64,000 nt of DNA. Source: an uncultured Verrucomicrobiota bacterium (GTDB lineage: Bacteria > Verrucomicrobiota > Verrucomicrobiia > Opitutales > Opitutaceae). Positions 1,377 to 55,358 of this stretch are shown one piece after another (positions within the stretch are counted from its first letter, which is position 1; the number at the start of each line of letters is the position of its first letter). The translations under genes and the position numbers were made by a program. The notes beneath the pieces were generated by a model. The model was not told where the DNA came from. It saw only the letters and a list, made by a program, of their open reading frames with translations, and ran no database searches. The DNA is taken from NCBI GenBank assembly GCA_903960515.1, contig CAJCBL010000302.1, positions 1 through 64,000 on the forward strand, in the 5' to 3' direction.

Positions 1377-2252
1377 CTATTTGTGCAGGCTCTGGCTCAC
1401 CGTGGCCACGCCGGCGCGCGCCACCTCGATCATCTTGTGGACCATCGCAGGCTCGAGCCTGTTGGCCTCCATAAACGGATGCGCGGCCACCAACTCCTCG
1501 GCCGCGGCCAGAGCATAGCCCAGGTGTGCGCTCTCGCTGCCGGGGGGCAGCAGCGCCGCGGAGAAATCCAGAGCTCCGGCCAGCCAGTTGGGCTGCGGCG
1601 CCTCAGCGGGCCGATGCTGCCACTCGACAGCCTGCACCGTGACGTCGGGGAATTGCCAATGCCGCAGCAGGATCGCCCCGGCCTGCGCCTGGGTGACTCC
1701 CACATTGTCCAGCTCCCACTGCTCCACGGGCTCGTTGTCGTTCCAGAACAGCCCGCCACCGAGGTCGTCGATGCTCTGGTTGATCGCCAGCCGCCCGATG
1801 TAGCGCAACAGCCCGGCGGTGTGCGCATCGTCGGGCGAAACCGCACCGGTGTGCGTGGCCAGCTCCTCCAACAACAGTCCGTGGAAAAGGCTCTCGGCCC
1901 AAAAGTCCTCGGCGGCGATGCCATAGCTGCCCAGGTGGCGGCCCGCGGCCAGATGCGCCACGGCATGGTTGAGCAGGCGTATACTTTCGCGGAAACCGAT
2001 CTTCTGGAGCGCGCGGTCGAGCGACGCCACCCTCTCGCCCGCCCCGTAGAAGGCGCTGTTGGAGCCGCGTATGATGTCCGCGGTGAGAGCGGCATCGGTG
2101 CGGATGAGCGCCACGATGTCGTCGAGATCCGAATTCGGGTTGCGCAGCAGCCCCATCGCCTTGCTGAGCACGCGCGGCGCCGGCGAGAAACGCTCGATCT
2201 TGAGGATCGCCGCGAGGAATTGGTCCTTGGTCGGTTTCATGGGAAGAGTCAT
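1377..2252 (-). CDS. HDOD domain protein
   Basis: HDOD-like sequence (FSPAPRVLSKAMGLLRNPNSDLDDIVALIRTDAALTADIIRGSNSAFYG); start trimmed to MTLPMKPTKD, overlapping cheA by 4 bp. Confidence 0.85.
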   Translation of the reverse strand: MTLPMKPTKDQFLAAILKIERFSPAPRVLSKAMGLLRNPNSDLDDIVALIRTDAALTADIIRGSNSAFYGAGERVASLDRALQKIGFRESIRLLNHAVAHLAAGRHLGSYGIAAEDFWAESLFHGLLLEELATHTGAVSPDDAHTAGLLRYIGRLAINQSIDDLGGGLFWNDNEPVEQWELDNVGVTQAQAGAILLRHWQFPDVTVQAVEWQHRPAEAPQPNWLAGALDFSAALLPPGSESAHLGYALAAAEELVAAHPFMEANRLEPAMVHKMIEVARAGVATVSQSLHK

Positions 2253-4687
2253 GCCGCAGTGGTGTCGATGGCGTATTCGACGCCCGAGCCCAGGCCGTTG
2301 CTCTGGGGGATGCGCGCGGCGTCGTAGGCCACCAGGCCGGAGACGTCGATGATCATGGCCACCTTGCCATCGCCCAGCACCGTGGCCCCGGTGAAGATGT
2401 CCACATGCTGCCCCAGCCAGCCCAGCGACTTGAGCACGGTCTGGTGGTTGCCCAGCACCTCGTCCACGGCGAAGCCGATACGCTTGTCCTCCAGCTCCAC
2501 CACGACGATGCGCTCGATCTCCGGCGGCTCGCCCGGGTAGTCGAAAAGTTCGCGCAGGCGCAGGTACGGCAGCAGTTCGCCGCGAAGCGCCACTACATTG
2601 CGGCCGTTGGCCGGCAGGCGCTCGCCGCGCTTCTGCTCGATGGTCTCCAGGGCGCAACTAAGCGGCAGGATGTAGCGGTCGTTGGCCACCCGCACCATCA
2701 GCCCCTCGATGATCGCCAGGGTGAGCGGCAGCGAGAGGCGGATCTCCGCGCCTCGGCCCGGCTGGCTGCGCAGCTCCACGGTGCCGCGCAACTGCTCGAT
2801 GCTGCGCTTGACGACGTCGAGCCCCACACCGCGGCCCGAGATCTCGGAGATTTTGTCGGCGGTGGAGAAGCCCGGCAGCATGATAAACTGGTAGATCTCC
2901 TGCTCGCTGGGCGTGGCGGCGGGATCGAGCAGGCCGCGAGCTATGGCCTTGGCGCGGATACGCTCGGCGTTGAGCCCGCGCCCATCGTCGGCCACCACGA
3001 TCCACACACGATCGCCGCGCTGTTCGGCGCGCAGGGTGAGGGTGGCGGCGCGCGGCTTGCCGGCGCGCTCGCGCTCCTCGGGCGGCTCGCAGCCGTGATC
3101 GAGGCAGTTGCGCACCAGGTGCATCAACGGGTCGTTGAGCTGGTCGAGCACGGTCTTGTCCATCTCCGTCTCCGCTCCCTCGATCACCAACTCCACCTCC
3201 TTGCCGAGGTCGCGGGAGAGGTCCCGGGTGAGGCGGCGGAACTTCGAGAAAGTCTCCCCGATGGGCATCATGCGCACGCCAAGCACTACGTCGCGCAGCT
3301 CGAAGGCGAGCCGCTGCAAGCCCTCGGCGGCGCCCTGCAACGCAGGCGGCAGATTGGGCACCAGCGCGCAGCCCTCGCTCACCTGGGATTTGAGGATCAC
3401 CAACTCGCCCACCAGATTGACCAGCCGGTCGAGCTTGTCGGCGGATACGCGCAACATCTCGTGCTTGGCGTTCACTGCCGCGGCGGAAGCTCCGGGTTTG
3501 CGCGCGGCGCCAACCCTGGGTGCTGTGGCCGCCTTGGGCACGGCGGGCCCCACCGCTGAGGCCGACCCGGGTGCGGCAGTTCCAGTGGTCGCTTCGGAGC
3601 CCATCGCGGCAGCGGCCACCTCGGGCTGGTCGGCCGGGGTGATGAGCGGGGCGGCATCGATGGCGAAGGCGAAGGCGTCGCCGATACGTTCGCGGGTCGC
3701 GTCGGTCTCCAGCCGCATGCGCCAGCGGCCAGGCTGGGGCTCGTCGCCGGCAGGCGGAGACTCCACAATGCGGTGCTCACCGAGCATGCTCAGCTCGAGG
3801 AAGATGGCGTCGAGCGCACCGGGGGCGTCGAGCAGGGCTGCAGTGGCCTGGAACTCCACCAGCCAGGCCCGCACGGCCACCGGAGCCTCAGCCGGTGCCG
3901 AAGTGGCGGATACCGCCAGGGCAATCTCCAGGTCGCAGTCGTCGGCGATGAAACAGAAAACGTCGCGCACGGACTCCAGCGACATGGCCGTCTGCAGGGC
4001 GATGTCCCAGCCCAGGTAGCACTGCTCGGCATCAAGCTCGGCCAAGCTGGGCAGGGCGGAGTCCACCACCCGCACCTCGCAGGCGCCCAGCGCGCGCAGC
4101 CCATCGAGGAACATCCCGGGGTCCACGCCCTGCTGGAACACTCCAGCATGGGGGCGGAAAGCGATCTTGTAACTAAATAGCGGTGGCGCCTCCGGGGCTA
4201 CGGGAACAGGCGCGGCGGCGGGAGCGACCTGAGCGGCTGCCCGGGCGACGGGCTCGCCGGGGCAGGCGTGCGCGGGCTTGGCGGCGGACTTTGCCGCGGG
4301 CAGGTGGCGCAGGAGTGCCTGCAGGTCGGCATCGGCCCCCTGGAGCACGGCGGAGGCGTCGGCCGGGGCGGCGGCCAGGTAGCGGGCGATCACATCGCAC
4401 AGGCGCAGGGTGATATCGACGATCTCGGAGTTCACGGCCACCCGGCCCTCGCGGGCGGCGTTGAAGAGGTCCTCTACGTGGTGGAGGAAGCCGGACAGGT
4501 CGGTGAAGCCGCTGGTGGCCCCGGAGCCCTTGAGGGTGTGCATCGCGCGAAACACGCGGTCGATGGCGTCGGTATTGGCCGGCTGGTGCTCGAGTTCGAG
4601 CAGGGCGGCCTCCAACTCGGTGAGCACATCGGCGGCCTCCAGCCGGAAGATTTCCCGGCTGCGGCGTTGGATCTCGTCGAAATTCAT
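2249..4687 (-). CDS. cheA: Chemotaxis histidine kinase CheA
   Basis: Hpt HTLKGS motif, ATPase motifs (LMHLVRNCLDHG, DDGRGL, SGRGVGLDVVK), C-terminal CheW-like domain. Confidence 0.95.
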   Translation of the reverse strand: MNFDEIQRRSREIFRLEAADVLTELEAALLELEHQPANTDAIDRVFRAMHTLKGSGATSGFTDLSGFLHHVEDLFNAAREGRVAVNSEIVDITLRLCDVIARYLAAAPADASAVLQGADADLQALLRHLPAAKSAAKPAHACPGEPVARAAAQVAPAAAPVPVAPEAPPLFSYKIAFRPHAGVFQQGVDPGMFLDGLRALGACEVRVVDSALPSLAELDAEQCYLGWDIALQTAMSLESVRDVFCFIADDCDLEIALAVSATSAPAEAPVAVRAWLVEFQATAALLDAPGALDAIFLELSMLGEHRIVESPPAGDEPQPGRWRMRLETDATRERIGDAFAFAIDAAPLITPADQPEVAAAAMGSEATTGTAAPGSASAVGPAVPKAATAPRVGAARKPGASAAAVNAKHEMLRVSADKLDRLVNLVGELVILKSQVSEGCALVPNLPPALQGAAEGLQRLAFELRDVVLGVRMMPIGETFSKFRRLTRDLSRDLGKEVELVIEGAETEMDKTVLDQLNDPLMHLVRNCLDHGCEPPEERERAGKPRAATLTLRAEQRGDRVWIVVADDGRGLNAERIRAKAIARGLLDPAATPSEQEIYQFIMLPGFSTADKISEISGRGVGLDVVKRSIEQLRGTVELRSQPGRGAEIRLSLPLTLAIIEGLMVRVANDRYILPLSCALETIEQKRGERLPANGRNVVALRGELLPYLRLRELFDYPGEPPEIERIVVVELEDKRIGFAVDEVLGNHQTVLKSLGWLGQHVDIFTGATVLGDGKVAMIIDVSGLVAYDAARIPQSNGLGSGVEYAIDTTAA

Positions 4688-4706: not shown

Positions 4707-5093
4707 TCATACCCGCACGGCGGCGGCCTGCGGGCAGACCATCTGGGCCACGCCGATGAGGCGCGCCGGGTCGAAGGGTTTCACCACCCAGCCGGTGGCC
4801 CCGGCCCTCTTGCCGGCCACCTTCTTGTCGTCCTGCGACTCGGTGGTGAGCATCACGATGGGGGTAAACTTGTACTGGGGCAGCGCACGCAGACGCGTGA
4901 TCAGGGTTATGCCGTCCATGTTCGGCATGTTGAGGTCGGTGATGATGAGGTCGGCCTTGCGCTGCTCGGCCAGCCGCAGGCCGGCCACCCCGTCCTCGGC
5001 GGCGAACACCGTGTAGCCGGCGCTGCTGAGGACCATCTTCACGGTTTCGCGGATACTCATCGAGTCGTCCACGGTGATCACAATCTTGCTCAT
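4707..5093 (-). CDS. cheY: CheY-like response regulator
   Basis: MSKIVITVDDSMSIRETVKMVLSSAGY...DLIITDLNMPNMDG...KPF; start trimmed. Confidence 0.92.
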   Translation of the reverse strand: MSKIVITVDDSMSIRETVKMVLSSAGYTVFAAEDGVAGLRLAEQRKADLIITDLNMPNMDGITLITRLRALPQYKFTPIVMLTTESQDDKKVAGKRAGATGWVVKPFDPARLIGVAQMVCPQAAAVRV

Positions 5094-5115
5094 GTTTGGC
5101 GGAGGGTCGGGCGGT

Positions 5116-5439: not shown

Positions 5440-7908
5440 TCAGGACTGGGGAGCGATGGCGACGGGGGGCACACCGGTCTCCAGTTCTTCGAGATAGCAG
5501 GACATCTCCACAGCCGACAGGTCGTGGAGGCGCTGGAGGTCGGGGCCGAAGGTGGCCCAGTCCTCGAACTGGCCGGCCCTCGCCTGGGTGATGGCGGCCG
5601 CGCAGAAGGCGGCCAGGCGCGCCCAGCCCAGCATGGTGAAGCAGCCCTTGAGCCCGTGGGCGGTCTCGGCGAGGCGCTCCATGTTGCGGTTGGCGCAGGC
5701 CTCGCCCAGGCGGGGCCAGGCGGTGGCGAGGTCTCGGCCGGCGGAGGCCTGCAACTGGCGCAGCACCTCGGCCACCTGACCGCCGGGCAGTCCGGGGAAG
5801 AGGGCGGCCAACTGGTTGCGGTCTACCAACTCGGGCTCGGAGGCCGGGCCTGCGGGCTGGGCGGGGCCGGCGGTCGTCACCCGGCGGAACAGGCGCAGGA
5901 AACACGTCTCGATGTGGGTGGGCAGCACCGGCTTGCTGAGGTATTCGTCCATGCCGGCCGCGAGGCATTTCTCGCGGTCGCCGCTCATGGTGTTGGCGGT
6001 GAGGGCCACCAGCTTGGGCCGGTTGGCGGCGTCGGGGTGGCGGCGCACGATCTCGCGGGCTGCGGCCAGGCCGTTCATCACCGGCATCTCTACGTCGAGC
6101 ACGACCAGGTCGAAGGGCTGCAGGAGCAGCGCTTCCACGGCCTCGGCACCATTGGTGACGAGCTGCGCCTTGTAGCCGAGATGTTGGAACAGGCGCTTGA
6201 GCATCTCGCGGTTGGTGGGGATGTCGTCGGCCACCAGCAGGCGCAGCGGGAGGCGCTCGCCCAGCTTGAGTACGGGGGCGGCCTCGCCCGGGGCGCTGGC
6301 CGGGGTGAGCAGGCCGGCCACAGTGCGCGCCAACTCGGTGAGATCGGTGGGCAGGGGCACGCTGGCGGCGCGCGCCGCCGGGGGCACCGGCCAATGGTGG
6401 CTGGGGCTGGTTAGCCAGACCACGGATACCGACTTCTCCTTGGTGCGGCTTTGCAGGTGGCGGCCGAGCATGGCGCCCAGGCTGCGGGCCAGGGAGGCCT
6501 CGACGATGGCCACATCGAAGGGTTCGTCGTTGTCGGGGGCGATATTCTGGCCGGGGCCACCCCAGACGGTGGGCTGCAGCCCCCAGGCGCAAAGGGTGTT
6601 GGCAAGGAATTCGCGGGTACGGGGATCCGAGCAGACCAGCAAGGCCCTACGGCCGGAGGCGGCCGGCGGTGCCACCTCCACGAGGGCGGTGCCGCCATCG
6701 GCCTCGCCCAACTCCACGGAGCAGCGGAAGATGCTCCCCTTGCCCACCCGGCTACGCACCGCGATGGAGCCGCCCATGAGTTGGGCAAAGGCCTGTGCAA
6801 TGGCCAGCCCGAGGCCGGTGCCGTGGTGGCTGCGTGTGGTGCCGAACTCGGCGCGGGCGAAGGACTGGAAGAGCTTGGGCAGGTCGCAGGCCGGGATGCC
6901 CATGCCGGTATCGACCACGGTGAAGGCGATGCGCCAGCAGCCGTCGTGGCGGCGGGCGGCCACATCCAGGTGAACCCCGCCCGTCTGGGTGTAGGTGACG
7001 GCGTTGTCGAGGAGGTTGAGCAGCACCTGCTGGAGGCGTCGCGGATCGCCCACCACGCGGGCTGGGACATTGCGGCGCACCCTGTAGGTGAGCGGCATCG
7101 ACTTGGCCCGCACCTTGTGGCCTACGCTGCGCAGCGCCTGGGTGACGAGCCCGAGCAGGTCGAAGGTCCGCGGCTCCAGGGCCACCTTGCCGGCCTGCAG
7201 GCCGGAGAAATCGATGAGCTCCTCGATGATGCCCAGCAGGTTCTGGCCGCTGTCGAGGATGAGCGTGGCGGCGTGCACGTCGTCGGGGGCCTTCGCGGTT
7301 TCCGCCAGGGTGGCGGCCAGGCCGTTGATGACGTTGAGGGGGGTGCGCAGCTCGTGGCCCATGCTGGCCAGGAAGGCGCTCTTGGCGCGATTGGCCGCCT
7401 CCGCTCCGTAGGCCAGTTCGGCGGCCTGGCGTGCGGCGGACTCCAACTGGTCGTTGGCCGCCTCCAGTTCCGCCTGCGAGAGGCTAAGGGCGGACTGCTG
7501 GCGGTTGCGCTCGGTGAGATCGTGCAGGAAGCAGAAGATCAGCGGGCTCACCCCGGGCTCGCGGCTGGCGCTCACCTCCACAGCGCGCAGCGAGCCGCCC
7601 TTGTGGCGCAGGTGGCAGTGGCACTGGGCCGCCCCGCCGGAAGTGAGCTGGTCGCGCAGGCGGGCGAAGACCGGGCCTTCACCCGGGCCATGCAGCTGCT
7701 GCACGCTCATCGCCAGAAGATCCTCACCAGAGCAGCCGGTGAGGCGGCAGCCTGCGGCGTTGGTGGCAAGGATACGGCCGGAGGAATCGAGCACGAGCAG
7801 GCCGTCGGGCGAATGGGCCAGGAGGGCCACCAGCTCGCGCTCGCGCTCCCCGAGTGCCTGGGCGGCCGGCGGGGGTGAGTTGGGGCTTGGGGTGAGTGGT
7901 TCGTTCAT
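5440..7908 (-). CDS. Hybrid sensor histidine kinase (PAS-HisKA-HATPase-REC-Hpt)
   Basis: PAS region, GHELRTPLNVI H-box, G-boxes, REC (LLVADDIPTNREMLKRL...VVLDVEMPVMNG), C-terminal Hpt (ETAHGLKGCFTMLG). Confidence 0.9.
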   Translation of the reverse strand: MNEPLTPSPNSPPPAAQALGERERELVALLAHSPDGLLVLDSSGRILATNAAGCRLTGCSGEDLLAMSVQQLHGPGEGPVFARLRDQLTSGGAAQCHCHLRHKGGSLRAVEVSASREPGVSPLIFCFLHDLTERNRQQSALSLSQAELEAANDQLESAARQAAELAYGAEAANRAKSAFLASMGHELRTPLNVINGLAATLAETAKAPDDVHAATLILDSGQNLLGIIEELIDFSGLQAGKVALEPRTFDLLGLVTQALRSVGHKVRAKSMPLTYRVRRNVPARVVGDPRRLQQVLLNLLDNAVTYTQTGGVHLDVAARRHDGCWRIAFTVVDTGMGIPACDLPKLFQSFARAEFGTTRSHHGTGLGLAIAQAFAQLMGGSIAVRSRVGKGSIFRCSVELGEADGGTALVEVAPPAASGRRALLVCSDPRTREFLANTLCAWGLQPTVWGGPGQNIAPDNDEPFDVAIVEASLARSLGAMLGRHLQSRTKEKSVSVVWLTSPSHHWPVPPAARAASVPLPTDLTELARTVAGLLTPASAPGEAAPVLKLGERLPLRLLVADDIPTNREMLKRLFQHLGYKAQLVTNGAEAVEALLLQPFDLVVLDVEMPVMNGLAAAREIVRRHPDAANRPKLVALTANTMSGDREKCLAAGMDEYLSKPVLPTHIETCFLRLFRRVTTAGPAQPAGPASEPELVDRNQLAALFPGLPGGQVAEVLRQLQASAGRDLATAWPRLGEACANRNMERLAETAHGLKGCFTMLGWARLAAFCAAAITQARAGQFEDWATFGPDLQRLHDLSAVEMSCYLEELETGVPPVAIAPQS

Positions 7909-7935: not shown

Positions 7936-9876
7936 TTAGAAAAGTTCGATACCCGGGCCGAGATCGGCCGGGGGCTTGGGCGGGGGCGCTGCGGAATCGC
8001 CGGCGGAGGGCGCGGCCGGGGGCTCCTCCGGGAAGCCGAAGAGCTCCACTGTGGAGGCGGAAGGGGCTACGGCTGCGGCGGAGGCGGCACTGGCGGCACC
8101 GAGGGCGGCGGCGTGCGCCCGGCGTTCCTCCTCCATGGTGTAGCGCTCGCGGTGGGTGGCCAGTTTGGCGGCGGCGGCGGGCTCCAGCCGCGCCGTGGCG
8201 TAGGGTGCGGTGATTTCATGGAGACGCTCGCAGAGCTCCTCCGCTGGCGTAAAGCAGGAGTCGATGAGCGCCGGGAAACCCAGCCGCTCCAGCAGCGATC
8301 TGGTTTCGCCGAAGAGCCTGGAGAAATCCTGGCTGGCCTGGGCGGCGTCGGCCTGCAATTGCACGCCCAGGTGATCGAGCAGCCCGCCGATTTTCACCGC
8401 TCCCTTTTCCAGCGAGAGCTTCTCCTGGCCGACGATCTGCAGGAACATGTCGGCCTGGCCGGCGATGCCCTGGAGCGAGCCCAGCACCTTGTCGAGCTGC
8501 CCGGAGAGCGTGCCGGTGACCTCCGCGATCTGGCCGGACACTCGGCTGCACTCCTCGGAGAGTTTGTTGAGCGCCTCCGCCGAGCTCATACGAGCGGCGG
8601 CCACCTGGGAGTTGAGGGCGACCAGCTTCACGTCGAACTCCTGGCGGGCGATCTCCAGGGAGAAGAACTTCACGACCTCCTCGATGCGGCCCACCGATCT
8701 GGATACCTTCGAGTTGGTCACCTGGCCCTGGTCGGCCACCGACGCCAGTTCGGAGATCTGGGCACGGTAGAGCTCGGCCAGCCGGCAGTCGCGGAAGGTG
8801 GCGGTTACGGCCGTCTCCATCGAAGTAAAGCAGGCCATCAGCCCCTCGCCGTGCTGGAGGAGTTGGGCCATGCCCTCGGTGACCTCGTGGCCGGCGCGCT
8901 CGATCTCGGCGCGGGCGGCGGCGAGCTGGGCTCGCTGGATCTTGGCGGCCTGGTGCACGAAGGCGGCATCGGCGGGCCGGCCGGAGTCTACGCCGGCGAT
9001 GTAGCCGGCGATGTCGTCGAAGCCCACAGCGATGTGTTCAAGTTTCTGGCGCACGATATCCTGGTGCTGGAGGGCCATGACCATGCCCAACGTGATCGGG
9101 CCGGTCTGGGCGAGCTGCTCCTCGATGCCCTGGTTCTGCGCTCCGCAGGGCTCCAGGGCCAGGCGCACCTTCTCCAACTCCCGGAAGATGGTATCCACGC
9201 TGGTGTGCGCGCGCTGGTGGAGAGTCTCCTCCAGGCGGCGCAACTCGGAGCGCTCGAGGCCGGACTCCTCCACGATGGCCTCGATGCGGGCGAAGGCGCC
9301 CACGGAGGTTGTCATGATCTTCTGGGCGATCTCGCCGATGTTGGCCGCCACGTTGATGAACACGCTCTGGTGCTCGGGCTCCAGCCGCACGGCCTCCATG
9401 CGGATGTTCAACGTCAAGATACGCAGCATCATGTCGCTGCGCTCAAACTGGTCGCGGGCCGCGCAGGCCAGCAGCAGCTCCTGCTCCACGGCGTGCATCG
9501 CCTCCTGCTCGGATACGGCCATGCCGATGCTGGCGTGCACCAGGTCCACGGAGCTCTTGTAGAGGGAATACGCCGCGGAGAGGGCGCGGTCCTCGTCGCG
9601 GTCCTGCACCACGGAGGTGAGCTGGGAGGTCTGCCGGCGCACCTCGCCCAGTTCGCTGCTGAAACGCCCCAACTCCTGGGCCAGCTCGGTGAACTCCCGG
9701 TCGGAGTCGCCGCCGAAGCGCATGAGCTCGGAGCGACAGCGCCGCAACTCCGCCCCGAGAGCGGCGGCGGTGGGCTGCGCCGGCCCCGCGGTGACCTTCG
9801 AACGGAGACCGCGCAGCCGCGCCAAGCCCCGGTACAGGGGGGCAGTCCAGGTGTCGGGCTGGAGGGGACTTGGCAT
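7936..9876 (-). CDS. Coiled-coil MCP-like protein with two MCP-tip-like segments and a QHQDIVRQ motif
   Basis: 646 aa from MPSPLQPDTW; no evident TM segment; segments NIRMEAVRLEPEHQSVFINVAANIGEIAQKI and LVALNSQVAAARMSSAEALNKLSEECSRVSGQ resemble MCP hairpin tips; inside the che cluster. Confidence 0.7.
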   Translation of the reverse strand: MPSPLQPDTWTAPLYRGLARLRGLRSKVTAGPAQPTAAALGAELRRCRSELMRFGGDSDREFTELAQELGRFSSELGEVRRQTSQLTSVVQDRDEDRALSAAYSLYKSSVDLVHASIGMAVSEQEAMHAVEQELLLACAARDQFERSDMMLRILTLNIRMEAVRLEPEHQSVFINVAANIGEIAQKIMTTSVGAFARIEAIVEESGLERSELRRLEETLHQRAHTSVDTIFRELEKVRLALEPCGAQNQGIEEQLAQTGPITLGMVMALQHQDIVRQKLEHIAVGFDDIAGYIAGVDSGRPADAAFVHQAAKIQRAQLAAARAEIERAGHEVTEGMAQLLQHGEGLMACFTSMETAVTATFRDCRLAELYRAQISELASVADQGQVTNSKVSRSVGRIEEVVKFFSLEIARQEFDVKLVALNSQVAAARMSSAEALNKLSEECSRVSGQIAEVTGTLSGQLDKVLGSLQGIAGQADMFLQIVGQEKLSLEKGAVKIGGLLDHLGVQLQADAAQASQDFSRLFGETRSLLERLGFPALIDSCFTPAEELCERLHEITAPYATARLEPAAAAKLATHRERYTMEEERRAHAAALGAASAASAAAVAPSASTVELFGFPEEPPAAPSAGDSAAPPPKPPADLGPGIELF

Positions 9877-9881
9877 GATGC

Positions 9882-10271
9882 TCAGCGGGCGGTGGTCGGA
9901 GTGCCTTCGATACCCAGCATCGCGCGCACTTGGGCGATGAGAGTGTCGGGCATCACCGGCTTGAGCAGGAAGCGCAGGTTGTGCGCGTGGCTGCCGAACT
10001 GCTCCTCGGCGTGCTTGGCCTCGGAGGTGATGGCCAGGATGGGCAGGTGGGCGAACTCGGGCTGAGCGCGCAGGTGGCGGATGAGGTCGGCCCCGCTCAT
10101 GTTGGGCATCACCATGTCGAGCAGCACCAGATCCACGGGCTGCTGTTTGAGCAGGGTGAGGGCCTCCTTGCCATCGCAAGCGGGCACGCAGCGGAAGCCC
10201 TTCTGGGTTAGAAACATCGAGTGGTAGAGGCGCACGATCTCGTAATCGTCGACGACAAGGATGGTTTTCAT
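9882..10271 (-). CDS. CheY-like response regulator
   Basis: MKTILVVDDYEIVRLYHSMFLTQKGF...LVLLDMVMPNMSG...LKPV. Confidence 0.9.
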   Translation of the reverse strand: MKTILVVDDYEIVRLYHSMFLTQKGFRCVPACDGKEALTLLKQQPVDLVLLDMVMPNMSGADLIRHLRAQPEFAHLPILAITSEAKHAEEQFGSHAHNLRFLLKPVMPDTLIAQVRAMLGIEGTPTTAR

Positions 10272-13194: not shown

Positions 13195-15276
13195 TTAGCG
13201 GGCGAAGGCGGGGGCGCGGGAAGCCGAGGCGCTGCGCGCGCCAGCGATGGTTTTCGTGCGGCGGGCGGCGGCGGCGCGGCCGTCGTCGTTGACCTTGAAA
13301 AACTCGATGGCGCTCTGGAGCTGCTCGGCCTGGCTGGCGAGCTCCTCGGAGGAGGAGGCCATCTCTTCGGAGGCGGAGGCGTTCTGCTGGATCACCTTAT
13401 CCAGTTCCTGGACGGCCTTGTTCACCTGCCCGGCGCCGCTGGCCTGCTCCTCGCTGGCGCTGGTGATGTCCTTCACCAGGTCGGCGGTCTTGCGGATGTC
13501 GGGCACCAGTTTGGTGAGCATCTCACCGGCGGCCTCGGCGATCTCCACCGAGGAGGCTGAGAGCTTGCTGATCTCACCGGCGGCGGTGGAGCTGCGCTCG
13601 GCCAGCTTGCGTACTTCGGAAGCCACCACCGCGAAGCCCTTGCCGTGCTCTCCGGCGCGGGCGGCCTCGATGGCGGCGTTGAGCGCGAGCAGGTCGGTCT
13701 GGCGGGCGATCTCCTCGATGATGGAGATGCGCTGCGCGATCTCCTTCATCGCCTTCACCGTCTGCGCCACGGATTGGCCGGCCTCGGCCGCATCGGTGGC
13801 TGCCTTGGTGGAGATCTTCTCGGTCTGGCGGGCGTTCTCGGTGTTCTGCTGGATGGAGGCGGTGGACTGCTCCATGGAAGCGGATACCTCCTCCACGGAG
13901 GCGGCCTGCTCGGAGGAGCCGGTGGAAAGCGTTTGGGCGGTGCTGGTCATCTCCTCGCTGCCGGAGGAGACGTTCTCGGCGGCCGAGCGCACGTTGGCCA
14001 CCACGTCGCGCAGGTTGGTCACCATCTTTTGGAGAGCGAGGCCGAGGGTGTCCTTTGCTGAGGCCAGTTTTACCTCGTGGCGCAGGTCGCCGTCGCCGAT
14101 TTGCACGGCCAACGCGGCCTTGGCGTCGAGCGCCTCAGCCATGCTGTTGGCGGCGGTCGAGAGTTCGCCGATCTCGTCAGTGGTTTCCACCACCACTCGG
14201 GCGCTGAGGTCGCCGAGGGCGATCTGGCCCAGGCCATCCATCAGTTGGCGCACGGGCCGCACGATCACTCGGGTGAGTCCCACGGTGAGCACCACCGAAA
14301 GCGCGAGCCCCACGAGAGTGGCTCCCACGGAGAGCGACTTGATCGTGGTGCCGAAGCGCTCACTCGCCTGGGAGCGGGCCTCGATGGTGGTGGCGTTGCT
14401 CACGAGCAACTTGGCCAGCAACGTTTCGGCCTTGAGCTGGGCGTCCCGGGTGGCGACGAGCGCCTGTTGTTGCAACGCGGCGGTGAGCTCGTTGGCCCGA
14501 GTAGTCAGTTTCTGCATCTCGTCGAACTTCGCCATGACGAACTTGGCGTGATCGCCGAGGGGATGTTCAAGGTAGTCGATGGAGTCGGCCACATGGCCGT
14601 CGCGCACCAGTTCCTTGCAACGCTTGATGCTCTCGTGGAAGGACTGGTGCAAAGGAGCAAGCTCAGCCAAAGCACGGGCCAGTTCCAGGTTCTCCAGGGT
14701 GTTGGCTGCCGCCCAACGGCCGAAGCTGCAGGTGCGGGCATCCTCCCCTCCTTCGAACACTTTGCCCTGAGCGCACATGTCCTGGGCGCTAACGAGCAAC
14801 TGGAAAGTGTCTCCACGGAAGCGCGAGAGGTCGCGCTCCAGGCGCGTCGGATCGCCGATCTTCAAGGCGTCCAGTTCGCGCGCCAGCTCGAAGAACTTGT
14901 TGTTCTGGATGCGCAGAACCTCCCAGGCGGCGGAGAACTCCAGCCACAACGCATCCTCCTCGGCCTGCCGAGGGATCGACTCGTAGCTCTTCCACGCGGA
15001 GGCGATATCATCGCGAGCCTTCGCCACCAGCGCATATTGCCGGGTGCGGACGGCGACGGGGATGCTGAGGTTGAGCAGCGTGCGGGTACAGCACTTCAAC
15101 ACATTGGCGCGATCCTGGAAGACCAGTAGCGCATGCTGGGCGGGCAAGGACTGCTCGGCCAGTTCGTCGATGTTACGGGAATTTGCCGACGCGCCGTAGT
15201 AGCTGATCGCCCCAAGGATCAAGGCGATGAGGGCGATGCAACCAAAGCCCAAGGTGAGTTTGCTACCGAGTTTCAT
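13195..15276 (-). CDS. Methyl-accepting chemotaxis protein (MCP1)
   Basis: N-terminal TM, HAMP, signalling tip [42 protein letters not shown]-terminal CSFGRW...HQSFH motif. Confidence 0.95.
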
Positions 15277-16279: not shown

Positions 16280-18514
16280 TCAATACCGCTCGAAGTTGGT
16301 GTCGTCGGTTCCGGCACCGAGATCGATCGATACCCCCGAGGAGGGCTTGCCCTTGGCGGCCGGCCGGTTGAGGTCGGCCAGAGCCGCCTTGGCTACATGA
16401 GCCGGGGCGGGCTTGCCAAGATGCACCGTGGAGTGCGCCACCTGCACATGAGCCGGGGCTGAAGCGCTTCGCGCTCCAGCTACACGCCGGGCGGCGGCGG
16501 CGCGGCCGTCGTCGTTGACCTTGAAGAACTCGATGGCGCTCTGGAGCTGCTCGGCCTGGCTGGCGAGCTCCTCGGATGAGGAGGCCATCTCTTCGGAGGC
16601 GGAGGCGTTCTGCTGGATCACCTTATCCAGTTCCTGGATCGCCTTGTTGACCTGCCCGGCGCCGCTGGCCTGCTCCTCGCTGGCGGTGGTGATGTCCTTG
16701 ACCAGGTCGGCTGTCTTGCGGATGTCGGGCACCAGTTTGTTGAGCATCTCACCGGCGGCCTCGGCGATCTCCACCGAGGAGGCGGAGAGCTTGCTGATCT
16801 CACCGGCGGCGGTGGAGCTGCGCTCGGCCAGCTTGCGTACTTCTGAAGCCACCACCGCGAAGCCCTTGCCGTGTTCGCCGGCGCGGGCGGCCTCGATTGC
16901 GGCGTTGAGCGCCAGAAGGTCGGTCTGGCGGGCGATCTCCTCGATGATGGAGATGCGCTGGGCGATCTCCTTCATCGCCTTCACCGTCTGCGCCACGGAC
17001 TGGCCCGCCTCGGCCGCATCGGTGGCGGCCTTGGTGGAGATCTTCTCCGTCTGGCGGGCGTTCTCGGTGTTCTGCTGGATGGAGGCGGTGGACTGCTCCA
17101 TGGAAGCGGATACCTCCTCCACGGAGGCGGCCTGCTCGGAGGAGCCGGACGAAAGGGTCTGGGCGGTGCTGGTCATCTCCTCGCTGCCGGAGGAGACGTT
17201 CTCGGCGGCCGAGCGCACATTGGCCACGACATCGCGCAGATTTGTCACCATCTTTTGGAGTGCGAGGCCGAGGGTGTCCTTGTCGGAGGAGAGTTTCACC
17301 TCGTGGCGCAGGTCGCCGTCGCCGATCTGCACAGCCAGCTTGGCCTTGGCGTCGAGGGCCTCGGCCATGCCGTTGGCGGCCACGGAGAGGGCGCCAATCT
17401 CGTCGGTGGACTCGACCACCACGCGGGCGGTGAGATCGCCAATGGCGATCTGGCCCAGGCCGCTGACCAGCTTGGACACCGGGCCGGTGATCATGCGGGT
17501 GATGATCATTCCTAGCGCAAGGGCCAAGCCCACGCAGATGATGCAACCGGCGATTAGGACGTTCGAAGAGGTGGCCAGCGAAGTGGCGGCCTCCTGGGCG
17601 GAGGTCGCGGTGGCCTTCATATTGAACTCGGAGGTGCTTCTCGCGGCATCGGTCACTCCATTCCCTGCAACCAAGCGCCTCTTGCCGAGTTCTTCGCGGG
17701 CAAACCATTGGGCGAGGAAGCGCTCCATGTTGCCGAGGTAGGCTTGGCCGGCGGCGCGGCAGTCCTCGATCTGGCGCAAATTCACTTCCTGATGGGTGAT
17801 CGGCTTCAGTTCAGCGAGTTTCCGGTTCACCTCATCGAACTTCTTCATGGTCGCCTTGAATAGGTCGGGGTCGCGAGTGGCGATGGCCTGCCAAGTGCCC
17901 AGGCGGATCGTATTACCAATGTCGATAATGTCGTTGCAGATCACCGTCTTCTTGATGCGCTCCTGCACCTTGTCCTCGGTCAGCTTACCGCCGATGGCCG
18001 TGCCGATGTCGGCGTCGAGCGAGCGCATCTGGCCTGCGAGGAACTCGTTGCAGGCCTTCATGAAGGCAGCGGCGGCCACCAGCGAGCCGTCCTTCTCCTT
18101 CTGCATCGCCTCGGTGGCCTTCACCGTGTCGTTGAGCAGTCGCTCGTACTCGGAGGCCTTCTCGTCGGCGTTCTTGGCATTATCGGCCAGCACCTTGAGG
18201 TCGTACTTCTCGGCATGGGCGGCGGCGTCGCGGAGAAACTTCTTCACGCTGACCAGTTCGGCGCGAGCCTTCTCGAGGAACTGGTTCTCCTCGGTGTAGG
18301 AATAGCCACGCACCTCAAGCATGACATTCTGAGCAGAGCGCTCGACGTCATTGGCCACGGACACGGCCGGGACATTTTCCTGTGAGAGCGTAGTGGCGAC
18401 AGTTTTCACCTTCAGCATGCTGAAGATGGCGAGAGCCCCCAGTATGAGGGTGAGCCCAGCGACTCCGATGAACGAGCCGTTCAACTTCACTCCGAGTTTC
18501 AGATTCTTGAACAT
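16280..18514 (-). CDS. Methyl-accepting chemotaxis protein (MCP2)
   Basis: TM, HAMP and the same signalling tip as MCP1; C-terminal half nearly identical to MCP1. Confidence 0.95.
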
Positions 18515-50205: not shown

Positions 50206-53200
50206 ATGCCCCGGAAAAAGATCGCTGCCGCCGCGCCCAAGCGCCCACCGCTCCCCGCCTCCCCGGCGCCCGCCTCGCCCGCCCAGGATCCGACTTGCCC
50301 CGAAGCCGCCTGCGTGTCGCCCGATGCCCCTTCCCTTTGCGCGGCCGCCCCTTCGCCCCCTTCCGCTTTCCCCGCTCTCGACCCCGACTCTTTTCCTCCC
50401 CCGACCGGCTTCCCCATCGTGGGTATCGGCGCCTCCGCTGGAGGGTTGGCGGCCTTCGAGGCCTTCTTCTCCGGCATGCCGGCGGTCACCGATACTGACA
50501 TGGCCTTCGTGCTGGTGCAGCACCTGGCTCCGGACCACAAAAGCATCCTCGCCGAGCTCATCCGCCGCTACACCCGCATGCAGGTCTTCGAGGTCGAGGA
50601 CGGCATGGTGGTGAAACCCAACTGCGCCTACATCATCCCGCCGGGCCACGACATGGCCTTCCTCAACGGCGCCCTGCAGTTGCTGGATCCTTCCGAGCCT
50701 CGAGGCCAGCGCCTGCCCATCGACTTCTTCTTCCGCTCCCTCGCGCAGGACCAGCATGAGCGCGCCATCGGTATCATACTTTCCGGCACCGGCAGCGACG
50801 GCACCCTGGGCGTGCGCGCCATCAAGGGCGAGGGCGGCATGGTCATGGCCCAGAACCCCGTCACCACCGAGTTCGGCGGCATGCCCCGCAGCGCCATCGC
50901 CACCGGCATGGTCGACTTCCAACTGCCTCCGGCCGAGATGCCCGCCCAGCTCGTAGCCTACGCCATCCACGCCTTCGGCAAGCCGCCCAAGCCGGGCACT
51001 GTGCAACCACCCAAGAGCGAGAACGCCCTCAAGAAGGTCTTCATCCTCCTGCGCGACCATACCGGCCACGATTTCTCCCAATACAAGCCCAGCACCATCC
51101 ACCGCCGTATCGATCGGCGCATGGCCGTGCACCAGATCGAGTCGCTGGAGAGCTATGTGCGCTACCTCCAGCAGACTCCCGCCGAGGTGGAGGCGCTCTT
51201 CCGCGACCTGTTGATCGGCGTCACCAACTTCTTCCGCGACCCGGCTGTCTACACGGTGCTGGTGGAGCGGGCGATCCCAAGGCTCTTCGATGGCCGGCCC
51301 ACCGGCGCTCCGGTGCGCGTGTGGTCGGCGGGCTGTTCCACCGGCGAGGAGGCCTACTCCCTCGCCATCCTGCTGGTGGAGCACATGGAGCTGCTCAAAC
51401 GCAACTACGCCGTGCAGGTGTTCGCCACCGACATCGACAGCGCAGCCATCGCCTCTGCCCGCACCGGACTCTACCCGGCCAGCATCGCAGCCGACATCTC
51501 CCCCGAGCGCCTGGCTCGCTTCTTCACCCCCGAGGCCGACGGCAGCGCCTACCGCATCCACAAAAGCATCCGCGATCTGTTGATCTTCTCCGAGCAGGAT
51601 GTGATCAAGGACCCGCCCTTCTCCAGGCTCGACCTGATCAGTTGCCGCAACCTGCTCATCTACATGGGCGCGGATCTGCAGAAGAAACTCATTCCGCTCT
51701 TCCACTACGCCCTGAGGCCCGGCGGCATGCTCCTCCTGGGCACCTCCGAGGGCGTGAGCGAGTTTGGCGAACTCTTCACCGTGCTCGACCGCAAGGCCAA
51801 GCTGTACTCCCGCCAGGACGATTTCCATGGTCGCCAGCGCGCGGCCCTGGGGCGCTTCCTGCCGCTGATGGCCGAGGGCGAGGTAACGCTGCCGCGCGGC
51901 AGCACCAAACCGGCAGGCCCCGGCGGCAAGTCGCTGCGCGAGCTCACTGAGCAAGCGTTGCTGGCACACGTCGTGGCCACCGGCGCGCTGGTCAATGCCC
52001 ACGGCGACATCCTTTACCTCTACGGCCGTACCGGGATGTTCCTGGAGCCGGCCCCGGGCGAGGCAGGCATCAACAACATCCTCAAGATGGCCCGCCAAGG
52101 ACTGCGCCGTGAACTCGCCACTCTCCTGCGCGAAGCGGCCACCAGCAAGGACACTGTGCACTGTCCGGGCGTGAGCGTGAAGACCAACGGCCACTTTACC
52201 CTCGTCAACCTCACGGTGCGGCCGTTGGCCAGCGGCTTGGCCGCTCAAGTCGCTGCCAGCACCGAGCCGGGCCGCAGGGCCGCCCCGGGCGAATCGCCGC
52301 TCTATCTGGTGATCATGGAGGAGATACCCGCCTCGGCCGGGGCCGCAGCGGGCCAAGGCGAAGCCCTACCGGGCCCGAAGGGCGCTCGCACTTTGCCCGG
52401 CCCCGATTCCGATGCCGGCGTGGCCGCGCTCAAGCAGGAGCTGCACGCCAAGGAGGAATACCTCCAGAGCCTCAACGAGGAGCTGGAGAGCTCCTCCGAA
52501 GAGCTCAAATCCTCCAACGAGGAGATGCAGTCCGTAAACGAGGAGCTCCAGTCCACCAACGAGGAACTGGAGACATCCAAGGAGGAGCTGCAGTCGGTTA
52601 ACGAGGAACTGGCCACAGTAAACACCGAGCTGCAGACTAAGGTGGCCGACCTCACGCGTGCCAACAACGACATGAACAACCTGCTCGCCGGCACCGGCAT
52701 CGGCACCGTGTTTGTGGACCACCAGTTGAGCATCCTGCGCTTCACCCCTGCCGCCAGCCAGATCATCAATCTGATCTTGAGCGACGTGGGCCGCCCCGTG
52801 TCCCATCTGGTCTCCAATCTGGTGGGCTACGACCGCCTGGTTCTCGACGTGCAATCGGTGCTCGACACCCTGGTAGCCAAGGAGGTGACCGTGCAGACTC
52901 GGGATGGCCGCTGGTACACGATGCGTATCCTGCCCTACCGCACTCTGGATAACATGATCGAGGGTGCGGTGATCACCTTCGTGGATATCACCGAGATGCA
53001 TCAATCGCAGGAGGCTCTGCGCAAGGCCAACGAGGGGCTGCGCCTGGCGGTGGTAGTGCGCGATGCCAGCGATGCCATCACCGTGCAGGACCTGGAGGGG
53101 CGCACCATCGCCTGGAATCCGGGCGCGGCACGCCTCTACGGCTGGAGCGAGCCTGAGGCCCTCGTGCTCAACGTGAGCGACCGCATCCCGGAGGCGCTGA

Positions 53201-53397
53201 GGGAAGGGGCGCTCGCCAAGCTGCGCCACCTCGCCCGGGCGGAGGTACTGGAGCCGTATCGCACCCAACGCCTCACCAAGGCGGGTGCCGTGGTGGAGGT
53301 ATCGATCACCTCCACCGCGCTGGTCAACGAAGCCGGCCAGTGCTACGCGATCGCGACTACGGAAAGGGTTCTAGAAACAAGGAGGGTGCATCCATGA
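50206..53397 (+). CDS. CheB-CheR-PAS fusion protein
   Basis: IVGIGASAGGLAAFEAFF (CheB), VWSAGCSTGEEAYSLAI and FSRLDLISCRNLLIYMG (CheR), coiled coil ELESSSEELKSSNEEMQSVNEELQSTNEELETSKEELQSVNEEL, PAS. Confidence 0.95.
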   Translation: MPRKKIAAAAPKRPPLPASPAPASPAQDPTCPEAACVSPDAPSLCAAAPSPPSAFPALDPDSFPPPTGFPIVGIGASAGGLAAFEAFFSGMPAVTDTDMAFVLVQHLAPDHKSILAELIRRYTRMQVFEVEDGMVVKPNCAYIIPPGHDMAFLNGALQLLDPSEPRGQRLPIDFFFRSLAQDQHERAIGIILSGTGSDGTLGVRAIKGEGGMVMAQNPVTTEFGGMPRSAIATGMVDFQLPPAEMPAQLVAYAIHAFGKPPKPGTVQPPKSENALKKVFILLRDHTGHDFSQYKPSTIHRRIDRRMAVHQIESLESYVRYLQQTPAEVEALFRDLLIGVTNFFRDPAVYTVLVERAIPRLFDGRPTGAPVRVWSAGCSTGEEAYSLAILLVEHMELLKRNYAVQVFATDIDSAAIASARTGLYPASIAADISPERLARFFTPEADGSAYRIHKSIRDLLIFSEQDVIKDPPFSRLDLISCRNLLIYMGADLQKKLIPLFHYALRPGGMLLLGTSEGVSEFGELFTVLDRKAKLYSRQDDFHGRQRAALGRFLPLMAEGEVTLPRGSTKPAGPGGKSLRELTEQALLAHVVATGALVNAHGDILYLYGRTGMFLEPAPGEAGINNILKMARQGLRRELATLLREAATSKDTVHCPGVSVKTNGHFTLVNLTVRPLASGLAAQVAASTEPGRRAAPGESPLYLVIMEEIPASAGAAAGQGEALPGPKGARTLPGPDSDAGVAALKQELHAKEEYLQSLNEELESSSEELKSSNEEMQSVNEELQSTNEELETSKEELQSVNEELATVNTELQTKVADLTRANNDMNNLLAGTGIGTVFVDHQLSILRFTPAASQIINLILSDVGRPVSHLVSNLVGYDRLVLDVQSVLDTLVAKEVTVQTRDGRWYTMRILPYRTLDNMIEGAVITFVDITEMHQSQEALRKANEGLRLAVVVRDASDAITVQDLEGRTIAWNPGAARLYGWSEPEALVLNVSDRIPEALREGALAKLRHLARAEVLEPYRTQRLTKAGAVVEVSITSTALVNEAGQCYAIATTERVLETRRVHP

Positions 53398-55358
53398 AAC
53401 CAGAAACCGGGCACGAGTCGGACAGGTCCGACCAGTCAGCCCTGTCGGACCCGTCCGACTCGTCCCACGCCCGCACCGCGGAACTGCGCCGGCGGGCAGA
53501 GGCCCTCGCCGGTGAACTTGCGGCTGCAGCTACCGCTGCCCCCCTCTCTCCGGAGGCCATGCAACGGGTGCTCCACGAACTGCGCGTCCACCAGATCGAG
53601 TTGGAAATGCAAAACGAGGAACTGCGCCGAACGCAGGAGGCGCTGGATGCATCCCGGGAGCGCTATTTCGACCTCTACGACTTGGCTCCCGTGGGCTACC
53701 TCACCGTGGGCGAGAAAGGGGTGATCCTGGAGGCCAACCTTGCAGCCGCCACCCTGCTGGGGGTGCCCCGTGGCGCGCTGGTCAACAGGGGGATGTTCTC
53801 CCAGTTCATCGCCACGGAGGACTTGGATAGCTACTACCTGCATCGCAACCGCCTGTTTGCCACCGGCCAGCCCCAGTCGTGGGAGGCACGTATGGTGGAT
53901 ATAACAGGCACGATTTTTTGGGCCCATCTGGCTGCGACCGCCGCCACCGATTCCACGAAGGGGATCCCTCAGGCGAAGCCTGAGCTAGAACAACAGCCCG
54001 AGCAGGGCGCGCCGGGTAGGCGGCGAGTGTGCCGGGTGGTGATTAGCGACATCACCGAACGCAAGCTGGTGGAGGCGGAGAAGGAGCGGCTGGAGTCCGA
54101 GAAACGCCAGTTGCGCAAGGCCGAAAGCCTCACCTGCATGGCCGGTGCGATCGCCCACAACTTCAACAATCTCCTACAGGGCGTGATGATGGGGCTGGAA
54201 CTGGCCAAGGGCGATGTGCTCAGGCTGGAAAGCCCCGACGAAAGCCTAGACTTGGCCATGCAGTCGGCACGCAAGGCCGCCCGAGTCAGCGGCATGATGC
54301 TCACCTACCTCGGGCAGACCACAGGCAAGCGAGAGAGGCTGGATCTGGCCGAAGTATGCCGGCAGAGCCTGCCTTTATTGAGAGCAGAATTACCGACGGC
54401 CTTCGATCCTACAGGAGAGCCCGGAGCAGGGCGGGCGGCGGTGCTGTTGGCGGCCGAGCTGCCCAGCCCCGGACCGGCGGTAGTGGCCGATTCCGGGCAG
54501 ATCCAGCAGATCCTTTCCAGCCTGCTGGAGAACGCCTGGGAATCCATGGGAGCGGCAGGGGGCAGCGTGCGACTGAGCGTAAAGTCGGTAGAGGCGGCGG
54601 CGCTGCCGGTGACCAACCGTTTCCCCCTCGACTACCGGCCAAAGAGCGGCGCCTATGCGTGTATCGAGGTGGCGGACATAGGGTGCGGGATCTCGCGCCA
54701 GGACATGGAGAAGCTCTTCGATCCGTTCTTCACGCGAAAGTTTACCGGCCGCGGGCTGGGGTTGTCGGTGGTGCTGGGGATTGTGCGCGCCCATGGGGGG
54801 GCCATCGCTGTGGAGAGCGAACTGGGCCGAGGCAGCGTTTTCAGGGTGTATTTGCCGGTGGCGGGTAAAGCCGTAGGCCGGGTGGCGGTGGCCGGAGGCC
54901 TCGCACCGGTCGAGGGCTCGGGGCATGTGTCGGAGGCGGCAGCGGCTGCCGCGCTGGAGCACCGCGGCACTGTATTGGTGGTGGAGGACGATTCAGTGGA
55001 ACGCAAAGCGACGGCGCTGGTGCTCAAGCGGGCCGGGTTTGGCGTGCTGGTGGCGGAGGACGGGGTGGCTGGCGTGGAGGTATTCCGGCAGTACGCCGAG
55101 CAGATCCGCTGTGTGCTGTGCGATGTGGCCCTGCCCCGGCTGGGCGGCTGGGAGACGATGGAGGCAGTGCGCAAGCTCTCCCCCGAAGTCCCGGTGATAT
55201 TGACCAGTGGTTACAGCGAAGCGCAGACGCGGGAGCTGGCGAAGGTAAGCGCCGAGCCGCCGGAGGCCTTTCTGCGCAAGCCCTATGGGGCGGCGGTGCT
55301 GGTGGAGGTGGTCGGGCAAGCTCTGGCCCGGCAGCAGGAGCAGAAGAAGGCTTGGTGA
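53394..55358 (+). CDS. PAS hybrid histidine kinase with REC domain
   Basis: Overlaps preceding stop by 4 bp; IAHNFNNLLQGVM H-box, G-box ITRQ..GRGLGLSVVLGIV, C-terminal REC; start trimmed to MKPETGHESDRSD. Confidence 0.9.
   Translation: MKPETGHESDRSDQSALSDPSDSSHARTAELRRRAEALAGELAAAATAAPLSPEAMQRVLHELRVHQIELEMQNEELRRTQEALDASRERYFDLYDLAPVGYLTVGEKGVILEANLAAATLLGVPRGALVNRGMFSQFIATEDLDSYYLHRNRLFATGQPQSWEARMVDITGTIFWAHLAATAATDSTKGIPQAKPELEQQPEQGAPGRRRVCRVVISDITERKLVEAEKERLESEKRQLRKAESLTCMAGAIAHNFNNLLQGVMMGLELAKGDVLRLESPDESLDLAMQSARKAARVSGMMLTYLGQTTGKRERLDLAEVCRQSLPLLRAELPTAFDPTGEPGAGRAAVLLAAELPSPGPAVVADSGQIQQILSSLLENAWESMGAAGGSVRLSVKSVEAAALPVTNRFPLDYRPKSGAYACIEVADIGCGISRQDMEKLFDPFFTRKFTGRGLGLSVVLGIVRAHGGAIAVESELGRGSVFRVYLPVAGKAVGRVAVAGGLAPVEGSGHVSEAAAAAALEHRGTVLVVEDDSVERKATALVLKRAGFGVLVAEDGVAGVEVFRQYAEQIRCVLCDVALPRLGGWETMEAVRKLSPEVPVILTSGYSEAQTRELAKVSAEPPEAFLRKPYGAAVLVEVVGQALARQQEQKKAW

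Follow-up and report, generated by a model that had tools for sequence, protein, structure and literature searches.

The question raised by this locus is what a soluble, helical protein of 646 aa does in the midst of a chemotaxis (che) gene cluster. The window, i.e., the whole stretch of 64,000 nt that was analysed, comes from an uncultured Verrucomicrobiota bacterium of the Opitutaceae. The initial annotation, made from the letters of the DNA, described the protein, here termed X, as a receptor-like molecule with two degenerate signalling tips and a CheZ-like motif, flanked by a CheY and a hybrid kinase. As possible roles it named a non-canonical scaffold, a tandem receptor and a CheY-P sink. 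The open reading frame was confirmed in strand and length, and Pfam searches with the neighbouring genes agree with this position. In order of transcription the cluster encodes MCP, CheW, MCP, CheR, CheD, CheB, CheY, X, hybrid kinase, CheY, CheA and HDOD, all on the minus strand. X and the genes around it are as follows.

2249..4687, minus strand: CheA by Pfam, in the same cluster as X
4707..5096, minus strand: CheY preceding CheA, by Pfam; in most relatives directly after X
5440..7908, minus strand: hybrid kinase PAS-HisKA-HATPase-REC-Hpt by Pfam, directly downstream of X and adjoining it in several relatives
7936..9876, minus strand: X, soluble, helical and MCP-like, with a DxxxQ of the CheZ type; stop codon at 7936-7938
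9882..10271, minus strand: CheY-type receiver by Pfam, directly upstream of X

The ATG start codon of X, at 9876, is a few bases 3′ of the stop codon of the CheY gene 9882-10271, and the genome has a single copy of X. Outside of the che cluster, a second CheR-like open reading frame (50206-53397) is followed by a histidine-kinase-like one (53340-55358).

Used alone, the X sequence has no significant match in Pfam, NCBIfam or PDB. It displays no Pfam domain for a sensor or HAMP input part and no transmembrane (TM) segment, the top 19-residue Kyte-Doolittle mean being 1.33; the lack of TM and HAMP is as first annotated. Relatives were therefore collected. A first search at the order level returned one 61%-identical relative and five divergent ones, and profile searches enlarged the set to 49 verrucomicrobial members. 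A plasmid search with the window X as query gave no match, and one with a distant relative as query led to nine alphaproteobacterial members. Thus X is a family found across two phyla, with 58 relatives collected, nearly all of them within che clusters. The homologues on alphaproteobacterial plasmids (L139-L148) are found terminal to F8-like che clusters or oriented divergently from them. Most of the 49 verrucomicrobial homologues are only 13-25% identical to the window X, and the invariant columns among these members are F173, Q270, D273, Q277 and N422 only. Database labels on the relatives read "type VII secretion target", "hypothetical" or "chemotaxis protein"; the first two of these look like misannotations of the alphaproteobacterial homologues. 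As far as searches show, in a body of literature that excludes most subscription journals, the X family is undescribed.

The family profile was more informative than the single sequence. In a comparison with PDB, MCP signalling domains rank first among all chains, and the E-value to 2ch7 is 2e-11 with a profile of 15 rows and 1.5e-14 with one of 48 rows. PF00015 is detected in 4 of 15 family members, the window X itself being below detection. When the C-terminal half of X was aligned by hhalign with receptors from the same loci, the E-value was 1e-10, as compared with 0.02-0.16 for reversed sequences. The N-terminal half gave 3e-4 (reversed, 0.03-0.07), with its tip in register. By sequence, the C-terminal half is homologous to the MCP signalling domain, and an MCP-like nature of the N-terminal half is only suggestive. 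The proposed tandem of MCP-like hairpins thus has strong backing in its second member and weak backing in its first. An internal duplication that relates the two halves is not claimed: the hhalign E-value of 6e-7 is to be read against reversed controls of 1e-5 to 2e-5. An ordinary coiled coil is ruled out by the homology of the C-terminal half to MCPs, which is lost on reversal, and by the five invariant columns. A single coiled-coil family with no similarity to MCP or CheZ had been named in advance as the outcome that would speak against the annotation. What was found is similarity to MCPs, together with a similarity to CheZ that is present only in the active-site helix.

The three segments quoted in the initial annotation were located at X residues 157-187, 268-282 and 418-449. 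With the conserved C-terminal region they give the following parts, all on the minus strand.

9319..9408, minus strand: first tip-like segment, residues 157-186, predicted turn 163-166, E161 in 47/48 and F173 in 48/48
9031..9075, minus strand: CheZ-like motif ALQHQDIVRQKLEHI, residues 268-282, with invariant Q270, D273 and Q277
8530..8625, minus strand: second tip, MCPsignal-like, residues 418-449, predicted turn 429-433, invariant N422
8113..8142, minus strand: conserved YTMEEERRAH, residues 579-588; YT in 39/48, H588 in 44/48
7939..8088, minus strand: tail, residues 597-646, low model confidence, probably disordered, two [IV]ELF copies

An AlphaFold model made with 48 sequences has a pLDDT of 86.4 and a pTM of 0.69. 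It displays four antiparallel helices of about 125 residues each, at 37-162 (interrupted), 167-297, 301-428 and 434-555, with tip-like turns at 163-166 and 429-433 and a connecting turn at 298-300. The helical arms are thus about 121-131 residues each, and the two hairpins may pack into a single four-helix bundle. A Foldseek comparison with the soluble receptor 3g67 gives a target TM-score of 0.64-0.65 over 209 columns. MCPs are the plausible Foldseek matches of the predicted model, but the E-values are weak (0.0086 and 0.015 for the best MCPs, which are interspersed with unrelated helical proteins).

Receptors of the X clusters allow a comparison of length. The distance from TM to tip is 157-167 residues in many of them and about 200 in others, the latter including both window receptors, which exceed by some 36 residues the 34H-like receptors found in other X clusters. 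The signalling domains of the two window receptors (13195-15276 and 16280-18514) are near-identical, and the CheR-type pentapeptide (NFERY) is only on the second. For a 34H receptor of the F8 system of Pseudomonas syringae, the stated positions are 165 residues apart, HAMP included (PMC11253619), a length near to the 157-167 residues. When the arms of X are set against this TM-to-tip length with its HAMP, X has about the length of the HAMP-less bundle of such receptors.

The tips themselves keep some receptor residues and have lost others. The second is similar to MCP tips at E-values of about 1e-10 to 1e-14, and the first more weakly so. The receptor Glu (47/48) and Phe (48/48) are kept at the first tip, without the Asn, and the Asn (48/48) and Leu at the second. 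A canonical CheA/CheW-binding tip was not found in X, in agreement with the annotation: the second tip is mostly without the receptor Glu and Arg, the equivalents of E385 and R388 in Tsr numbering. One reading of these features is that X mimics a receptor and serves as a scaffold or modulator of the array, with its tips inserted into the CheA/CheW baseplate where they tune or cap the array, and with the Asp-Gln helix as a non-catalytic protein-binding surface. The MCPsignal homology, the conservation of N422, E161 and F173 at tip positions, and arms that suit the 34H-type receptors of many of the same clusters, whose TM-to-tip length with HAMP is 160-167 residues, are in its favor, whereas the replaced Glu and Arg speak against it.

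The CheZ motif consists of DXXXQ together with AXXF(Y)Q (PMC7750401). In the X family the corresponding sequence is [AS]LQ[FY][QE]DIxRQ, to be compared with AxxFQDLTGQ of CheZ, where AxxFQ precedes D143 and Q147 and these two residues have the same spacing as D273 and Q277 of X. D273 and Q277 are kept in 49/49 verrucomicrobial homologues and 58/58 members, and [LMIV]QxxDxxxQ is likewise found in 58/58; A and F/Y are frequent at their positions but not strictly kept. A PSSM was built from six CheZs and scored on 612 ORFs. The top seven of these include six X family members, each scoring at the motif, and the window X reaches 9.9 bits as compared with 6.3 for the best non-family ORF. It should be noted that several of the more divergent X members score poorly at the motif with this PSSM. 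On helical wheels with family-averaged hydrophobicity, Q270, D273 and Q277 are 104-175 degrees from the hydrophobic face, and D143 and Q147 of CheZ are 131-171 degrees from theirs. This disfavors a buried polar layer, and invariant polar residues on an exposed face suggest binding or catalysis, not packing.

The similarity ends with the active-site helix. PF04344 (CheZ) has no match in X or elsewhere in its genome, a CheZ profile compared by hhalign with the whole X family reaches a probability of 1.7%, no better than reversed-sequence controls, and CheZ is absent from the listed Foldseek matches. X as a true CheZ orthologue is thus unsupported. No other part of the family is as strongly conserved as the CheZ-like motif proposed at the outset, which has the spacing, context and exposure of CheZ, and a relation to CheZ beyond that helix was not borne out. 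As to the receptor-mimicking scaffold, it would leave the exact CheZ spacing and context of the Asp-Gln pair unexplained, and this reading is considered unlikely.

A second conserved feature is the C-terminal tail. The CheZ peptide VDDLLxSLGF (DDLLxSLGF) was not found in X, where the tail has [IV][ED]LF instead. A peptide of the form [IVML][ED][LF]F is present in 42/47 complete verrucomicrobial tails, mostly at the extreme C-terminus, as compared with 0.5 expected from shuffled tails, and ten complete tails have it twice or more (shuffled tails, 0). The tail of the window X has STVELF internally and GIELF at its C-terminus, and the alphaproteobacterial tails mostly end in LF. In two homologues (L047:211-2343 and L049:7536-9821) [IV][ED]LF recurs, with about three copies or more; such repeats in disordered tails are like a multivalent docking region. 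By analogy with CheZ, the partner of the peptide may be CheY. Just N-terminal of the disordered tail, YTMxxERxxH is kept across the two phyla and has no match to a known motif.

The tail also bears on whether X is a soluble chemoreceptor that couples a cytoplasmic cue to control of CheA. Soluble MCPs such as 3g67, met in the Foldseek comparison, exist, and the MCP homology of X fits such a role. However, many receptors of X clusters end in the pentapeptide xFxxY, unlike the X tail peptide, the protein has no sensor domain, the canonical tip is lost, and PF00015 is reached by few relatives and not by the window X. A receptor of this kind is considered very improbable.

Neighboring genes were surveyed in the 49 verrucomicrobial X stretches. 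CheY is present in 43, CheA in 39 and CheX in none; two stretches are without any che gene, and both are short contigs. Most loci have the gene order X-cheY-cheA, and in many relatives only one CheY adjoins X. In a subclade that includes the window X and four others (L101, L104, L125 and L127), a second CheY directly precedes X and a hybrid kinase follows, in the window one with a terminal Hpt domain, suggesting phosphorelay cross-talk of the hybrid kinase with two CheYs. In such a setting X might serve as a sink, buffer or sorter of CheY-P or CheY among CheA, the two CheYs and the hybrid kinase, with no hydrolysis. The position of X between a CheY and the hybrid kinase, with the second CheY beyond, is compatible with this, as is a tail that can hold several peptide copies. 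The single CheY beside X in many relatives argues to the contrary, and the strict invariance of the Asp and Gln favors catalysis over mere binding; a sink is judged improbable.

Across 388 Verrucomicrobiota genomes no CheZ was found. PF04509 and PF13690 (CheC/CheX/FliY) have no match in X. The initial annotation saw no CheZ, CheC or CheX gene; this is true of the 64-kb window, and three CheX genes are found elsewhere in the genome (contigs C277, C188 and C220), two of which are followed by a CheY-like receiver. Another contig (C30) carries a second CheA adjoining HDOD and a receiver, and in two other genomes with X (G013 and G419) the other CheA is near CheX and CheY. The argument that X is needed since the genome has no other phosphatase is ruled out by the three CheX genes. 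The cell is not without a phosphatase, and therefore the proposed phosphatase activity concerns X's own system. CheA is found in 115/252 genomes of the taxonomic family, among them all 35 genomes with X (p 4e-14), and at least two CheA genes are found in 33/35 X genomes as compared with 14/80 others (p 2e-15); these p-values come from table counts made by hand, with genomes that are not independent and with genome size uncontrolled. X thus marks an additional chemosensory system. FliM is present in 132/252 genomes of the family, including the host genome.

The reading preferred here, with a probability of roughly 0.6, is that X is a CheZ-type CheY-P phosphatase that uses a receptor fold as its scaffold and serves F8-like chemosensory systems. 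It is better supported than a sink or a scaffold because the motif is conserved with the spacing, context and exposure of CheZ. Catalysis, CheY binding and array localisation are what we infer for X from its sequence and predicted structure. One chain with two long hairpins would form a four-helix bundle like that of a cytoplasmic chemoreceptor dimer, but with no anchor in the membrane. D273 and Q277, which face outward on the predicted helix 2, would do the work of D143 and Q147 in CheZ: Q277 would position a water at the phosphorylated Asp of the neighboring CheY, and D273 would hold the CheY lysine. The [IV][ED]LF of the flexible tail may bring in the substrate or another partner, much as CheZ captures CheY through its C-terminal peptide. 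The receptor-like tips may set X at the array baseplate beside CheA, so that, docked to or near the array, it would terminate the signal from the CheA-CheY pair of its own system. More tentatively, and with the odds somewhat against it, a duplicated receptor hairpin may have given rise to a soluble, pseudo-dimeric CheY-P phosphatase with one catalytic helix, located in F8-type arrays next to CheA. In that case X would represent a separate origin of CheZ chemistry, or a clue that CheZ descends from receptor hairpins.

Many chemotaxis systems have no CheZ, and the way in which they terminate the CheY signal is often obscure. The X family is a concrete, in-cluster candidate for signal termination in CheZ-less systems of Verrucomicrobiota and Alphaproteobacteria, and it would tie the receptor fold to CheZ chemistry. 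If X proves active, it would be a CheY-P phosphatase of a novel form; if not, it would be a novel component of the array, derived from a receptor.

Among known proteins, CheZ (PF04344; E. coli 1KMI) shares with X an exposed DxxxQ with AxxFQ-like surroundings, placed on helix 2 of a long hairpin, a C-terminal peptide on a flexible tail, and a gene located by cheY/cheA. However, CheZ has about 210 aa and one hairpin and forms a homodimer, whereas X, with 646 aa, is three times longer and has two predicted hairpins per chain. X also differs in its tail peptide, and it has no significant overall sequence similarity to CheZ and no Pfam match. With the MCP domain (PF00015; T. maritima 2ch7 and 3g67; Tsr 1qu7) the C-terminal half of X aligns across the hairpin, including the LxALNAxxxAA tip. 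Unlike MCPs, X has no TM, HAMP or sensor, has altered tip residues and two hairpins per chain, and carries the DxxxQ motif. CheC, CheX and FliY have a fold and active site unrelated to X; CheX genes adjoin cheY in sister clusters of X genomes and are in none of the 49 X stretches.

At the level of systems, the alphaproteobacterial X clusters are similar to the order cheY-A-W-mcp-W-R-B of R. leguminosarum Che2, an F8 system (PMC7617929). For the verrucomicrobial clusters, F8 likeness was assessed from gene content and the length of the receptors only, many of which are of 34H length. For R. leguminosarum Che2 and P. syringae cluster II, the accessible portions of the sources name no X-like component. 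A last comparison is with CheT of Sinorhizobium meliloti. CheT is reported to have a DXXXQ and no sequence homology to CheZ, and to accelerate the dephosphorylation of one of two CheYs (PMC12654446). It is like X in being alpha-helical, encoded in a che cluster and not CheZ by sequence, and unlike X in belonging to the main rhizobial chemotaxis cluster and in having no MCP homology reported in the accessible passages. CheT is thus a precedent for X as a DXXXQ phosphatase that is not a CheZ.
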